A stretch of DNA of 27,955 nt, from the IMG/VR virus record IMGVR_UViG_3300030104_003918, positions 1 to 27,955 of that record, one strand, 5' to 3'. A program made the translations under genes and the position numbers. The first letter of the stretch is position 1. The number at the start of each line of letters is the position of its first letter. The DNA is from a virus. Under the pieces are notes generated by a model. The model was not told the origin of the DNA and made no database searches. It saw only the letters and a program-made list of their open reading frames with translations. Shown here in pieces: positions 2,029 through 9,262 of this stretch.

Positions 2029-2366
2029 GAGTAAAAGAAGAAATCGGAATGAAAGGGCCACAAAGGCGCCATAAAGGCTCACTTTGGTATGGAATGGGTT
2101 CTTCTACCGAAAGTAACTTTAGCGCAGAAAAAACCCAGCGAAAACGCCCGTATCGAACTAATAGGTTTGGTGCATCAGTTAAAGAATGGAATACCTGTAA
2201 GAAAATGGTAGTTTTAAGAGAAAATGGATATACATATGGTCATATAGCAAAGTATTTAAACAATGCAGGCATAAAGACTAAAGCAAACAGGCCGTGGAAT
2301 TACTACACTGCGCGGTTTGTCACGCTAAGAGCAAAAGAGGAAATCGAGAATGGACGAAACGATTAA
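2025..2366 (+). CDS. Small basic helix-turn-helix protein
   Basis: 113 residues, rich in Arg and Lys. Residues about 58-98 contain ENGYTYGHIAKYLNNAGIKT followed by RPWNYYTARFVTLR. This resembles the helical part of the serine-recombinase 'recombinase' domain (IA..LN..GI.T....W....V), which binds DNA. No catalytic resolvase domain is present, so it is a free-standing DNA-binding module and not a recombinase. It starts inside the stop of the fibre gene (ATGA) and overlaps the next gene by 17 bases, so it belongs to the late operon. Its target is unknown. Confidence 0.6.
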   Translation: MRVKEEIGMKGPQRRHKGSLWYGMGSSTESNFSAEKTQRKRPYRTNRFGASVKEWNTCKKMVVLRENGYTYGHIAKYLNNAGIKTKANRPWNYYTARFVTLRAKEEIENGRND

Positions 2367-2766
2367 GCACAGAATAAAGCAACAATATAACCGTCTAAGC
2401 GCATTACTTGTTTTTATAGCAAATGCGTTCACACTGATGTATGTCGGTGGGATGGCTTATAACGATGCCCTATGGTTTGGTTCGGTAAGTGGTGCTTTCA
2501 CATACACAATCTTGTCTACGATTGCAGACTCACAAGACTTAGAGGATATGATTCCTGAACGTCGACGAAAATCTGCGTCTTATCAAGTACCTAATCAGCC
2601 GATTCCGCAAAACATGATACCGTTTAATCAGTATCAACAAATGCAACAGCAACAACCTATGGCACCAATGCCAGCAGGCGGATATATCAATCCACAGTCA
2701 GGAGAGCTGTTAGATGCGGAACAAGGGCCACACATTGATAAGATAGCAGGTAAACAAAGTGGATGA
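2350..2766 (+). CDS. Two-helix membrane protein with Gln/Pro-rich tail
   Basis: 138 residues. Two hydrophobic segments lie at about 17-38 and 42-60, after a short basic N-terminus. A soluble tail of about 75 residues follows, rich in Gln, Pro and Met (around NQYQQMQQQQPMAPMPAGG). A GAGGAAAT-type site precedes the ATG inside the upstream gene. It is the first of three adjacent membrane-protein genes. Size and topology would fit a holin-like protein or a membrane partner of the MscS-like product next door, but no family is recognised. Confidence 0.6.
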   Translation: MDETIKHRIKQQYNRLSALLVFIANAFTLMYVGGMAYNDALWFGSVSGAFTYTILSTIADSQDLEDMIPERRRKSASYQVPNQPIPQNMIPFNQYQQMQQQQPMAPMPAGGYINPQSGELLDAEQGPHIDKIAGKQSG

Positions 2767-3583
2767 AGGACTAGTCTTTGCATGGTTTATCGCAGTAGCG
2801 TTAGGAGTATCAGCAGCGATAAAAAAAGCAAAGAAGTCTGCATTTAGCGATTATAAAATAAGAAGTTTACAAGGAAAAGCAGCAGCGCAAGTGTTTGGAG
2901 TATTAGGAGCTTTAGTTTTTGGAGTAGGGCTTTTGATGTATAGCGGTTTGCTGGCACGTACCGAATATATAGTTGGAGTATCAGCACTTACGTATGCTGC
3001 CTTTTCCCAATACAGTCCTGTTAACGGAGCTTTATCTTTTCTTACAGTAGCATACAAAACAGAGTTTGCTATTGATGATTGGGTAAAAGTATCTAATGAG
3101 GCAGGAGAAATAAAAGGAAAAGTTAAAGATTTTAGTTTAAAGGGCGTAAGGCTTAAAACATTTGACATGTCTGAGGCGATTGTCTCCTGTGATGAATTAC
3201 TTCATTCAGTCGTGGAAAACCTGACACCCTCCGACATATTCAGATGGGAGACGCCTGTTTCTATTTCCAAGATGGTTCCTGTGAAAAACATAGAAAATAC
3301 AGTAAATGCTGTATTATCACAACACAGTTTAGAATCATTAGTAGATGAAGAAGGGTTTGCACAAAAAGCATACATAGAGTTCCATGATGACAAATTAGAT
3401 TTTAAACCAAACTTTCGTAGGATAAGTATATATACATATCATCCAAAATGGATTCCTATGCCTGAAGGTGCGGAACCAATCGGATACGAGGTCGCCTATC
3501 AACTTTCTAGGGAGTTTAAACGTGACATGTATGAGAAGATGGATTCGCAAAAGAATGCATATGTAGATGTGGTGAGGCCATGA
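2759..3583 (+). CDS. MscS-like mechanosensitive channel family protein
   Basis: 274 residues from a GTG start that overlaps the previous gene; no other in-frame Met occurs before residue 60. There are three hydrophobic segments at about 4-21, 42-62 and 68-100. The third runs into TEFAIDDWVKVSNEAGEIKG and then KGVRLKTFD, which matches the MscS beta domain (PF..GD.V.v....G.V.......T.irT.DG). Residues 164-262 resemble the MscS cytoplasmic alpha/beta domain, with ISIYTYHP and then YEVAYQLSREFKRDMYEKM. The Gly/Ala-rich pore-helix pattern is only partly kept. MscS channels open under membrane tension. A viral copy between two small membrane proteins suggests a role in lysis, egress or osmotic control, which is inference. 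Confidence 0.7.
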   Translation: MDEGLVFAWFIAVALGVSAAIKKAKKSAFSDYKIRSLQGKAAAQVFGVLGALVFGVGLLMYSGLLARTEYIVGVSALTYAAFSQYSPVNGALSFLTVAYKTEFAIDDWVKVSNEAGEIKGKVKDFSLKGVRLKTFDMSEAIVSCDELLHSVVENLTPSDIFRWETPVSISKMVPVKNIENTVNAVLSQHSLESLVDEEGFAQKAYIEFHDDKLDFKPNFRRISIYTYHPKWIPMPEGAEPIGYEVAYQLSREFKRDMYEKMDSQKNAYVDVVRP

Positions 3584-3963
3584 GATTCATAAGAAATATG
3601 TTGTTTGGAACTGGCAGGTATCCTAGCACAATGGGTGCAGGAGGCCAACAGGACGTGGAGTTCTGTAGATACATAGAATGGGTTTGGTTCAAAAGATGTA
3701 TGTGGTTACTCGGACTTGGCTTTGCTTTTGGCGGAGTTGGGTTGTATGTTGGTTATTATTATGAAACTGTAGTTGCAGATTACGGTATGGCAATCTGGGG
3801 AGTTGCTTGGTTATACAATGGATTCCTTATGTTTGTATTGGCTGTAAGTGTTGTATTGTCAGCAATTAAAGCTTTGATAGTCAAGGCGTTTGTCAGCCCT
3901 GAAGTTCAGGTAGGACAGGCAGCAACAAGGACAGCACAGATGATGAGGAAAGGTGGACTATGA
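3580..3963 (+). CDS. Small two-helix membrane protein
   Basis: 127 residues. Hydrophobic segments lie at about 41-60 (MWLLGLGFAFGGVGLYVGYY) and 70-98 (YGMAIWGVAWLYNGFLMFVL and on). The N-terminus is polar and the C-terminus basic (TRTAQMMRKGGL). It overlaps the stop of the MscS-like gene (ATGA), so the two are probably translated together. It is the third membrane protein in a row and may be a partner or holin-like protein. No family was recognised. Confidence 0.6.
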   Translation: MRFIRNMLFGTGRYPSTMGAGGQQDVEFCRYIEWVWFKRCMWLLGLGFAFGGVGLYVGYYYETVVADYGMAIWGVAWLYNGFLMFVLAVSVVLSAIKALIVKAFVSPEVQVGQAATRTAQMMRKGGL

Positions 3964-4034
3964 AGTTTAGATGGCTTAGAGAAATGTTAGAGATATTAGA
4001 AGATTATAGAGACCATAAGGAGGATTTAAAATAA
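3960..4034 (+). CDS. 24-residue micro-protein
   Basis: A 24-codon reading frame starting with MKFRWLREMLEILEDYRD, which would form one amphipathic helix. Its start overlaps the upstream stop and its stop overlaps the next start (TAATG). An AAGGAGG site for the next gene lies inside it at 4017-4023. It may be a true small protein, or a translated spacer that couples the flanking genes. Confidence 0.45.
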   Translation: MKFRWLREMLEILEDYRDHKEDLK

Positions 4035-4396
4035 TGGCTGGGCCACCACAGATGACTACTTTAGCACGTAAACCTCAGCAAGCACAGCAAGAGGAACCCC
4101 AAAGGGAAGTGGCTCCAGCACCTAATGTTCTTACAAGACAACCAGTTCAACAACAGATGATGCCAAGTGCAGAAACAATGTCTGATGATGAATTGGATTT
4201 GTATGTTAAACGTCTCACTATGAGACACAAAAGGCTATCACGAAAGTGGTGGGGGTTAAGGCGTAAACACGGCAAAGACGAGTGTCCTTATTGTGGCATG
4301 ACGACAGGAGGAGGCTTCTGTAAATTACACCAACGCGACTACGATGAGTATCTCTCGGCTTTGTCCACCCGCCAAAACAGGAGGTTTGGACTATGA
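4034..4396 (+). CDS. Gln/Pro-rich protein with C-terminal zinc finger
   Basis: 120 residues. The first 45 are low-complexity (Gln, Pro, Ala); residues 48-75 look helical and basic. A probable zinc site follows: CPYCGMTTGGGFCKLH at about 93-108. A strong AAGGAGG at 4017-4023 lies 10 bases before the ATG. The last residues (RRFGL) are encoded by the ribosome site of the next gene. Its place among late genes suggests a virion or assembly role, but none is known. Confidence 0.6.
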   Translation: MAGPPQMTTLARKPQQAQQEEPQREVAPAPNVLTRQPVQQQMMPSAETMSDDELDLYVKRLTMRHKRLSRKWWGLRRKHGKDECPYCGMTTGGGFCKLHQRDYDEYLSALSTRQNRRFGL

Positions 4397-4596
4397 ACGT
4401 AACAAAATGCCCAGAATGTAAAGTTGATATGTGGATTCCAAATGAAGATAAATATACAGCAGACGTTTTGTGTATAAATGATAAATGTAAATATCATTTG
4501 CTTACAACAGAATTGTGGAAACCTGAATCTCAAGATTACAGGTCTGCTAAGACTTATGTTGAACAAATTACTAAACACAGGAGGTTTGGGCTATGA
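4393..4596 (+). CDS. Zinc-ribbon mini-protein
   Basis: 67 residues with CPECKVDMWIP at the start and CINDKCKYH at about 27-35, a CxxC plus CxxxxC pattern that fits one zinc ribbon. It begins within the stop of the previous gene and uses GGAGG at 4380-4384. It ends in RRFGL, like its upstream neighbour, because both C-termini encode a near-identical ribosome-binding segment. Function unknown. Confidence 0.6.
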   Translation: MNVTKCPECKVDMWIPNEDKYTADVLCINDKCKYHLLTTELWKPESQDYRSAKTYVEQITKHRRFGL

Positions 4597-4670
4597 TATG
4601 GGTCAGGCCTACTTATACAATTACAGTCGAAGGACTTGAAAATTACGAAACATATTGGAGGAGACTATGA
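4593..4670 (+). CDS. 25-residue micro-protein
   Basis: A 25-codon frame starting MIWVRPTYTITVEGLENYE, overlapping both neighbours by ATGA. A GGAGG site for it lies at 4580-4584, and the GGAGGAG serving the next gene lies inside its last codons. The chain of overlaps supports translation. No homology is recognised. Confidence 0.45.
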   Translation: MIWVRPTYTITVEGLENYETYWRRL

Positions 4671-5437
4671 GCGGTTACCACGGCAGCCCATCAGGATATA
4701 TGAATCCTGTAGCGGTAGATAAGATACAGCATCCAGATTACGATGCGAAGGCAGCAGAGAATACAACAATGCGTATGGTGCAATACCTATACCCTGTCAT
4801 TAAGAACTCTGTAGAGATGTTAGAAGCATTATGTAAGGAGACTGATGTTCAGGTTCCTACAGATTTAGCAGATAACATGGAGTTTTTGAAAACAGTTTAC
4901 AATACACAGATAGACTGGCATCCAAGAACTATGTATGGTGACGAGGCAGCAGAGGAGCTTAATGCACGTCTCACCTTGCACGAGGAATGGGCACAAGAAG
5001 ATAATGCACATCACAGTGTTCTAAACTGGCAAAACCCGTATGGAGAAACTGGTAAACTCGAACAAGCTCCTCCTGTTACTCAACCACAGATGAATCCATA
5101 TCAGATGCAACAGCAAGGATACGGACAACAGATGCCAATGCAAGGTGGAGCAAGTATGTTTAAACCATGGACTTGGTTTGGTGTAGGTGCAGCAGCACCA
5201 GCAGTTCAACCATGGCAGATGCCACCACCACAGTTAGATTCTTTACATAATGGAGAACAATATTATACAGCAAATGGAGGGGGGCCACCACCTCTAGCAG
5301 TTCAGCAAGGTTACACGACATTGCCAATAGGCGCAATAGGCTGGAACATGGCAGGACAACCGATTGACTACAATGGAATGGTAGTAGCAACGACGGGCGA
5401 AAAGCTCATGAATACCGCAATCAGTAAGATACTATAA
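4667..5437 (+). CDS. Gln/Pro/Gly-rich late protein
   Basis: 256 residues from ATG 4667. That start overlaps the upstream stop (ATGA) and sits 5 bases after GGAGGAG; a TTG at 4655 is possible but less likely. Residues 1-120 look like an ordered helical domain (TMRMVQYLYPVIKNSVEMLEAL). From about 130 the chain is disordered, with PYQMQQQGYGQQMPMQGG and several Pro-Pro-Pro runs. A short ordered end (PIDYNGMVVATTGEKLMNTA) follows. It lies directly before the head-tail connector, so a minor virion protein is plausible. No family recognised. Confidence 0.55.
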   Translation: MSGYHGSPSGYMNPVAVDKIQHPDYDAKAAENTTMRMVQYLYPVIKNSVEMLEALCKETDVQVPTDLADNMEFLKTVYNTQIDWHPRTMYGDEAAEELNARLTLHEEWAQEDNAHHSVLNWQNPYGETGKLEQAPPVTQPQMNPYQMQQQGYGQQMPMQGGASMFKPWTWFGVGAAAPAVQPWQMPPPQLDSLHNGEQYYTANGGGPPPLAVQQGYTTLPIGAIGWNMAGQPIDYNGMVVATTGEKLMNTAISKIL

Positions 5438-6153
5438 TGGCTTACTGCACACGAAACGACGTATCTGCCTTCTTACAGGTAGCAGATTTTAGTGGTTCAA
5501 CAACGCCAGCAGATGGTGATGTAGATGGTTTTATTTCTATGGCAGAGGAACGTATTGACCAATTAACAGACCATGCGTGGGCTACAAGCAGAGCAAAAAC
5601 AGTAACAGAAGAAAGGGGCAGAATACAAAGAGTAATGTCTAATTCAGTAAATGACAGAGGCAGGATTCAATTAAGGCATTATCCTATTTTAGACATGGTA
5701 GACGGAACCGACAAGCTTCACATTTGGGATGGCGGTAATTATGTAGAATATATTAATAGTAAAACTGGAGACGATACGATTACAAATGTAACAGGTAAAG
5801 ATTATTGGATAGATAAAGAACGCGGAACTATTTATTTGAACAGTTATAATCAATTCAATTTGTTAAGTGATGCGCCTTCTGGAGTAACTGCTTATGTTAC
5901 TTACAGATATGCAACAGCAACTACACCTGCTGACATAAAACAGGCTACAATTTATCTTGTAGCTTCAATGATTGCAATGAATGACGATTTAAATTTAATG
6001 CAAGAGGGCGATGATTCTATGAACAATCAAACTAAATCTGAAAAGTTTGAAGACATGGCAATGAAGATTCTTAAAGATAATAGAAGGTTAGGTAGGTCAA
6101 TGCCTATGGCAAGAGCTATTGGTGGCTTTGGAGCTAGAGGGGTGCTACCATAA
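5437..6153 (+). CDS. Head-tail connector (gp6-like adaptor)
   Basis: 238 residues. YCTRNDVSAFLQV at the N-terminus and DGFISMAEERIDQLTDHAW at about 29-47 resemble the helical start of gp6/gp15-type adaptors. A beta insert follows and then PADIKQATIYLVASMIAMND, the typical second helix. These proteins form a ring under the portal and join head to tail. The gene overlaps its neighbours by one base (TAATG) on both sides. Position just before the tail-completion and tail-tube genes supports the call. Confidence 0.65.
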   Translation: MAYCTRNDVSAFLQVADFSGSTTPADGDVDGFISMAEERIDQLTDHAWATSRAKTVTEERGRIQRVMSNSVNDRGRIQLRHYPILDMVDGTDKLHIWDGGNYVEYINSKTGDDTITNVTGKDYWIDKERGTIYLNSYNQFNLLSDAPSGVTAYVTYRYATATTPADIKQATIYLVASMIAMNDDLNLMQEGDDSMNNQTKSEKFEDMAMKILKDNRRLGRSMPMARAIGGFGARGVLP

Positions 6154-7988: not shown

Positions 7989-8534
7989 ATGGTAAGAGTC
8001 AGAGGTCAGTTAGACGCCCCTCTACTTGACGTAGGAGCAGTAAGAGAAGATTACTGGGAACGCAAGGAGATATTACTTCCAAGTTTATCAAGACTTTACA
8101 AACCAAAAGGTTGGAGAAGGTGGTTTTACAAAGAACAAGCACCTAAAATAGTACTAAAAAGATTAACTTCTAGCGATTGGCAAGAAATAGAAAGTAGGAA
8201 TTATGCATTACAGGCAGAGTTGGAAAAAGCAATACCTGAATTTGCACCTTTAGTAAATAAACATATAGGCGGGCAAAAGTTATCAGAATCAGAATATCAA
8301 AAATTAGATAAATTTAGTGTTAAAATGCGACCTATGAATTATACTATGTTACAATTTATGATTGATGAACCTAAGATGTCTTTTGAAGATGTTAAATATA
8401 TGATGGAAATATTGGATGCTAATGACATAGATACGTTGCTTAGTTATGTAAGTATTATGACTTCTGAAAAAGCATTAGTTGCAAAACACATATTTGATAA
8501 AAAAATGAAAGAATCGGAGATGATTAGTCAATAA
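7989..8534 (+). CDS. Putative tail assembly chaperone
   Basis: 181 residues, largely helical and charged (PKIVLKRLTSSDWQEIESR, then MSFEDVKYMMEILDANDIDT). Its place between tail tube and tape measure is where tail assembly chaperones are found. An A7 run at 8499-8505 could slip by -1, but that frame stops at 8525-8527, so no long chaperone extension is encoded. GGTAA lies before the start and the stop overlaps the next ATG (TAATG). The call rests mainly on position. Confidence 0.45.
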   Translation: MVRVRGQLDAPLLDVGAVREDYWERKEILLPSLSRLYKPKGWRRWFYKEQAPKIVLKRLTSSDWQEIESRNYALQAELEKAIPEFAPLVNKHIGGQKLSESEYQKLDKFSVKMRPMNYTMLQFMIDEPKMSFEDVKYMMEILDANDIDTLLSYVSIMTSEKALVAKHIFDKKMKESEMISQ

Positions 8535-9262
8535 TGGCTGAAGAAGATGTGTTGCTTTTATCAGCACGGATGACGGCAGAAGGGTTTGAAGTAATCGATG
8601 TTATAGATGCTAAATATAAAAGCCTTGGCAACACAATGCAAAAAGGTAAAAAAAGAGCAGAAGGCACTGAACAAGCGTTAAAAGACCTTAATAAGCAGAT
8701 TGAAAAGAATACAAAAACAACAGAAAATTCTTCAGTTAAAAATATTGAATCTTTAATGATTATGGAAGCTGCTACAAGCGGTATTAATCAATTAATTTCC
8801 GCAAGGTATAAAGATATAGATGCACAGTTAGCTTCTGGAGAAATAACGCAAGAAGAAGCTGAGGAATTAAGAAAAAGTGTTAAACAACAAGAACGTTATT
8901 CAAGTAGTTTAGAAAAAACAATAGCCGTAATGCGATTGTATAAAGTAGCACAATTTGCAGCAGCAGCCGCTGTAAATGTATATACGGCCGCTACTATGAA
9001 AAATACAAAAGCAATTTTAGTTAATACTGCTGCTTTGTTAGCAAATCCGTTTGTATTGTTTGCTATGACTTTGGTAAGCGTAGGATTAATTCTTAAAGGA
9101 GTTAGCAAAGAGTTTGGCTTTTTATCTGACCAAATGGAGGCTTTGGGTAGAGTAATGAAACCTGTGACGGACGGTTTTGAATCGTTTGTAGAAATAATTG
9201 ATGCTATTGTTGGAACAGATATACAAAATAATAGATTGTTTGAGGCAATAATAACGGAGTAA
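8534..9262 (+). CDS. Short tape measure protein
   Basis: 242 residues. Residues 1-150 are helical and probably coiled coil (LKDLNKQIEKNTKTTEN, QEEAEELRKSVKQQERY). Two hydrophobic stretches follow at about 140-160 and 168-190 (LLANPFVLFAMTLVSVGLIL), typical of tape measures. The length is small. With the usual 0.15 nm per residue, the tail would be only about 35-40 nm. The gene sits after the chaperone candidate and before the baseplate genes. Confidence 0.6.
   Translation: MAEEDVLLLSARMTAEGFEVIDVIDAKYKSLGNTMQKGKKRAEGTEQALKDLNKQIEKNTKTTENSSVKNIESLMIMEAATSGINQLISARYKDIDAQLASGEITQEEAEELRKSVKQQERYSSSLEKTIAVMRLYKVAQFAAAAAVNVYTAATMKNTKAILVNTAALLANPFVLFAMTLVSVGLILKGVSKEFGFLSDQMEALGRVMKPVTDGFESFVEIIDAIVGTDIQNNRLFEAIITE

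Follow-up and report, generated by a model that had tools for sequence, protein, structure and literature searches.

A divergent MscS-superfamily protein in a conserved five-gene cassette of a tailed-virus lineage, with a putative role as a late host-membrane channel

In this study, we have analyzed a window of 27,955 nucleotides (the whole stretch of DNA considered here, positions 1 to 27,955 of the IMG/VR virus record IMGVR_UViG_3300030104_003918), in which positions 2759–3583 of the + strand encode a divergent, full-length protein of the MscS superfamily, hereafter c4. This protein is a fixed member of a cassette of five genes, placed among the structural genes of a tailed-virus lineage, and comparison of related contigs indicates that the cassette has been swapped as a block between lineages that differ in their heads and tails. 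The likeliest role of the cassette, which we put forward tentatively, is that of a putative late host-membrane channel complex for virus release.

The c4 gene starts at a GTG codon and codes for 274 residues. Its product matches the Pfam family PF00924 (MS_channel_2nd) with an E value of 2.2e-8 and a score of 34.5 bits, the cut-off being 20.2, and this MscS beta domain, which an earlier note on the same DNA had read by eye in the translation, is found in 10 of 10 c4 homologs of the IMG/VR contig alignment at an E threshold of 0.1. Profile–profile alignment by hhalign of the viral c4 family with E. coli and archaeal MscS gave a probability of 97.8% and an E value of 4.6e-12, covering residues 1–269 of 274 at approximately 11% identity. 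A sequence profile search of solved structures with the c4 profile returned no match, probably because a profile of 10 sequences is too narrow. The AF2 model, built from a shallow alignment, has a mean pLDDT of 51.6, so the better modelled C-terminal domain (approximately residues 153–262) is mainly taken as structural evidence. When aligned with MscS chains in VIA-align, this domain shows an rmsd of 2.3–2.8 Å over 84–91 residues (Z 8.2–8.3), which backs the C-terminal alpha/beta domain also recognized by eye. With the c4 model, the best four Foldseek matches are MscS-family structures and rows 1–29 of VIA-align are all MscS-superfamily chains. The MscS identity of c4 is thus borne out both by profile search and by fold, the two checks by which the earlier note had proposed that it could be refuted.

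The TM3 region of the model is of low confidence, and the pore helix was compared at sequence level, by mapping onto E. coli MscS positions. At this level, the invariant residues G73, A76 and A81 of c4 map to G101, G104 and G108, involved in TM3 packing, L/I77 and F/L82 map to the seal positions L105 and L109, and the invariant S86-P87 maps to the G113-S114 kink that precedes the beta domain. A Lys-rich loop behind the first helix, as read from the sequence, agrees with the MscS topology with the N-terminus outside. E. coli MscS (PDB 6vyk, 2oau), YnaI, YbiO and TtMscS share with c4 the three N-terminal helices, the beta domain and the C-terminal alpha/beta domain; unlike them, c4 is encoded by a virus in a fixed five-gene block and lacks the PN motif of the MscS beta domain.

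The c4 gene is flanked by those of two small membrane proteins, c3 and c5, neither of which has a family match. The three open reading frames are found on the + strand at the positions first reported for them, 2350–2766 (c3), 2759–3583 (c4) and 3580–3963 (c5), each overlapping the next, by 8 bases for c3/c4 and by 4 bases for c4/c5. The c5 protein, 127 residues long in every relative (57–92% identity), shows hydrophobic stretches at residues 40–58 and 83–101 in a hydropathy scan, and its AF2 model is a helical hairpin of low confidence (mean pLDDT 60.9). In c3, of 138 residues and kept in all relatives, the helix at 18–36 is clear and a second one, at about 42–58, falls below the threshold of the scan. 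The two membrane helices originally attributed to each flanking protein are therefore clear in c5, while c3 has one clear helix and a probable one. The c3 protein ends in a tail rich in Gln, Pro and Met (Q/P/M); in most relatives (L035:14784-15269) it also carries an insertion resembling a calcium-binding loop, NAMNYMENRTGWDMNRDGHVG, which the window and G006 lack.

Downstream of c5, and on the same strand, lie two further genes. The c6 protein (4034–4396) has a Q/P-rich N-terminus followed by a conserved Cys/His cluster, CPYCG..GGGFC..H, that looks like a zinc ribbon, and has no confident family match. The best conserved of the five cassette genes is c2 (4655–5437); its product, of 260 residues, is soluble, with a Q/P/M-rich middle region and a nearly invariant C-terminus that stays almost the same in remote relatives as well. 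Strongly Q/P/M-rich stretches are confined in the window genome to c3, c2 and c6, with maxima over 40 residues of 57%, 53% and 50%, respectively, and 28% in the next protein; in the distant relative G010 the corresponding values are 85, 62 and 42%, with 30% in the next. By a plain hydropathy scan, the only membrane proteins consistently seen are c3, c4, c5 and the tape measure protein. NCBIfam yields no confident match for any cassette protein.

All relatives with a contig covering this region share the order c3-MscS-c5-c6-c2 (2350–5437 in the window), namely nine further virus contigs of 24–37 kb (G001, G003, G005, G006, G008, G009, G010, G011 and G012); a gene set kept in all of these is not due to chance. 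The survey of gene neighbourhoods in related viruses suggested in the earlier note thus found the c3-MscS-c5 set in the same order in all nine. The trio described there is real and conserved; the unit to which it belongs, however, looks like one of five genes rather than three. The shared map runs through terminase, portal, capsid protein, LamG adhesins, the cassette, head-tail adaptor, tail genes and tape measure. Upstream in the window are a LamG-domain adhesin or fibre gene (1–2028, + strand; PF13385, E 3.8e-27), whose 5' end lies outside the window, and c22 (2025–2366, + strand; PF07508, E 9.7e-6), coding for a short protein with a Recombinase-type domain and missing from G006, G009 and G010. 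That domain is the only one in c22, which sits directly upstream of the exchanged cassette. Downstream, the conserved block is bounded by the head-tail adaptor gene (5437–6153, + strand; phrog_442 E 3.8e-6, phrog_17057 E 1.3e-26), a relative of HVTV-1 gp125. The whole cassette is found directly upstream of the adaptor in 9 of 28 adaptor-bearing contigs, across an assembly gap in one, and at the opposite contig end, as a circular map would give, in another (IMGVR 3300030330_003115); 16 of the 28 end inside c2 (contig starts of L291-L312 and L315), and the remaining contig holds just a fragment of the adaptor. Nothing other than the cassette was found upstream of the adaptor in these 28 contigs, and the breaks inside c2 probably arise where assemblers stall on a very conserved gene. 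The tape measure protein (8534–9262 in the window) has only 242 residues, and 176–250 in relatives, a length that would mean a short tail.

Comparison of the relatives has highlighted the cassette as a unit with a history of its own. Between G001 and G003, the five cassette proteins are 93–98% identical, against 70% for TerL, 65% for the adaptor, 54% for the capsid protein, 32% for c13 and 25% for the tape measure; fourfold-degenerate sites are 71–89% identical in the cassette, as opposed to 39% (TerL), 50% (capsid gene) and 56% (adaptor), and in 200-base windows the limits of the conserved stretch coincide with the c3 start and the c2 end. As both proteins and silent sites are more alike here than in the head and tail genes, we infer that lineages have exchanged the block, and since the silent sites do differ, this is not one sequence copied into several assemblies, although some joins at c2 may be assembly chimeras. 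MscS, c5 and c2 are more conserved than the adaptor in 36/36 genome-pair comparisons, and c2 is more conserved than TerL in 25/28, MscS in only 14/28; as genome pairs are not independent, no probability is attached to these counts. In the closest pairs TerL is conserved as much as the cassette. G011 and G008 carry a different MscS allele, 71–73% identical to that of the G001 group, in an otherwise similar block.

The relatives of the head genes support an archaeal virus, as presumed in the earlier note. The capsid protein and the adaptor match archaeal viruses only, at 25–28% identity, both matching the HVTV/HCTV group and the capsid protein also a Methanofastidiosa virus; the portal has its matches in the HVTV group and in a Methanomassiliicoccales virus, with weak ones in Paenibacillus phages. 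Capsid, portal and adaptor therefore point to what is probably an archaeal tailed virus. TerL matches the haloarchaeal phiCh1 and phiH alongside bacterial phages. Several of the contig names are presumably those of marine virome datasets. A provirus search found none in 250 genomes of the marine group I family and none in 193 of Poseidoniales, and no TerL relative was found among the genome contigs searched. Scans for sigma-70 promoters and terminators, with models unsuited to archaea, remained at chance level. The two most distant relatives carry genes of 7-deazaguanine metabolism (QueC, QueD and QueE; G010 L041:12358-15359 and G009 L051:3946-4494), together with FolE in G009 and a tRNA-ribosyltransferase-like protein adjoining QueC, which suggests a modified viral DNA; the QueC of one relative lies about as far from that of marine group I as from that of Poseidoniales.

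Among 81 proteins, taken from G012 and G010 and from a part of the window, Pfam recognizes no family of lysins, holins or S-layer proteases, in line with the lack of an endolysin or holin reported for the window itself, and no lysis family is present among the 25 of 47 PHROGs families listed for the near-complete G012 and G010. No cassette protein has a holin-family match in Pfam, PHROGs or NCBIfam, holins being too diverse for this to exclude them, and small holin-like open reading frames may still exist elsewhere in these genomes. The presence of three membrane proteins, one of them of a pore family, in the absence of a recognized lysis gene suggests that the cassette acts at the host membrane. 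The same-strand structural block and the overlapping genes would imply late, coupled expression, and the exchange of the cassette against divergent capsids, adaptors and tails suggests that it acts with a partner on the host side and not with one in the virion.

We therefore favour, as a tentative model, a late channel complex serving release, one of the two roles suggested for the trio in the earlier note, the other being to keep the infected cell intact. Late in infection, c4 would oligomerize in the host cytoplasmic membrane into a pore, probably gated by tension, and would be joined there by c3 and c5, while the Q/P/M-rich tail of c3 would gather the soluble c6 and c2 at the inner membrane face. 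Accumulating virions might then strain the membrane, leading to the opening of the complex and to the dissipation of ion gradients; in the least certain step, the opened complex would time or carry out, in a holin-like way, release from a host free of wall polymers. Two-helix bacteriophage holins are, like c5 and probably c3, short membrane proteins encoded with structural genes, but the cassette differs from them in having neither a holin-family match nor a recognized endolysin and in co-encoding a structured channel protein. Against a role in release, the cassette appears unusually conserved, whereas known phage holins are usually variable, MscS normally protects cells against lysis, and c6 and c2 have no obvious part in the process.

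The same properties of c4 bring up an osmotic safety valve, that is, a viral MscS-like relief channel that stops the infected cell from bursting before the virions are finished. The whole MscS architecture, with the small TM3 packing residues and the hydrophobic seal residues, makes classical gating plausible, and MscS has an established protective role, as also described in PMC3386975. We nevertheless consider this reading unlikely, as the candidate hosts already own MscS-family genes (86 of 101 genomes of the marine group I family and 95 of 96 of Poseidoniales) and the constant company of c3, c5, c6 and c2 is left unexplained. A recent capture of a host MscS was considered and rejected: the viral profile, in a search run without a positive control, finds no match in 10 archaeal genomes, marine or related, which argues, in favour of the release model, that c4 has not been captured freshly as a valve of the host. 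A marine archaeal MscS alignment found no relative among viral contigs, in a search limited by a required short-peptide-pattern match. Public phage-record matches of E. coli MscS (H34-H50) were also discarded, since they look like bacterial contigs filed as phage, among them Salmonella contigs of 691 kb and 156 kb.

Another reading, which we hold to be still less probable, places the cassette in virion assembly or entry, either as a membrane platform for head and fibre assembly or as virion-borne membrane proteins opening a path for the DNA. Its position between adhesin and head-tail adaptor genes, the extreme conservation of the soluble c2, and Q/P/M-rich tails that could serve as scaffolds would all fit; however, exchange of the cassette does not follow the alleles of capsid, adaptor and tail, its proteins match no structural-protein family in Pfam, PHROGs or NCBIfam, and we know of no lipid membrane in tailed virions. 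Superinfection exclusion or counter-defence, by a membrane complex blocking other viruses or a host membrane defence, would also fit modular exchange and a host-membrane location, but is highly improbable given that PADLOC models give no confident match to the cassette proteins, only a weak one to c6, and that the cassette lies among structural rather than early genes.

As far as our searches reach, c4 is the first known case of an MscS-type channel among the core genes of prokaryotic tailed viruses; no report of such a gene in archaeal tailed viruses was found in the literature covered, outside which most subscription journals fall. HVTV-1/HCTV-5 (Druskaviridae) and the Methanofastidiosa virus vir519 have related capsid protein, portal and adaptor (24–28% identity) and the same overall gene order, but HVTV-1 and vir519 have no annotated MscS or five-gene cassette between the capsid and adaptor genes. 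An MscS-like protein of 261 residues with three predicted helices is encoded, like c4, by a virus, that of Aureococcus anophagefferens, and MscL-like genes occur in other giant viruses; unlike c4, these are single, mutually unrelated genes of large algal or protist viruses, with no conserved cassette described (PMC6163359). Mechanosensitive channels, MscL by name, have also been reported in estuarine virus contigs (PMC13288924).

The exit of tailed viruses from archaeal cells free of peptidoglycan is an open problem. In a 2015 review, no holin gene was identified among isolated archaeal viruses (PMC4456609), and fold similarity is the only basis of later archaeal-virus holin candidates (PMC12596118). 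It is conceivable, if rather doubtful, that the cassette is the membrane-permeabilization system so far missing from a widespread lineage of tailed archaeal viruses, an MscS-derived, strain-sensing holin within an exchanged five-gene release module. How archaeal tailed viruses control the membrane of the host in the late phase of infection is likewise unsolved, and the cassette may be their means of doing so; a conserved, swappable block of five genes with a recognizable pore protein, it is a specific candidate that can be expressed and tested.
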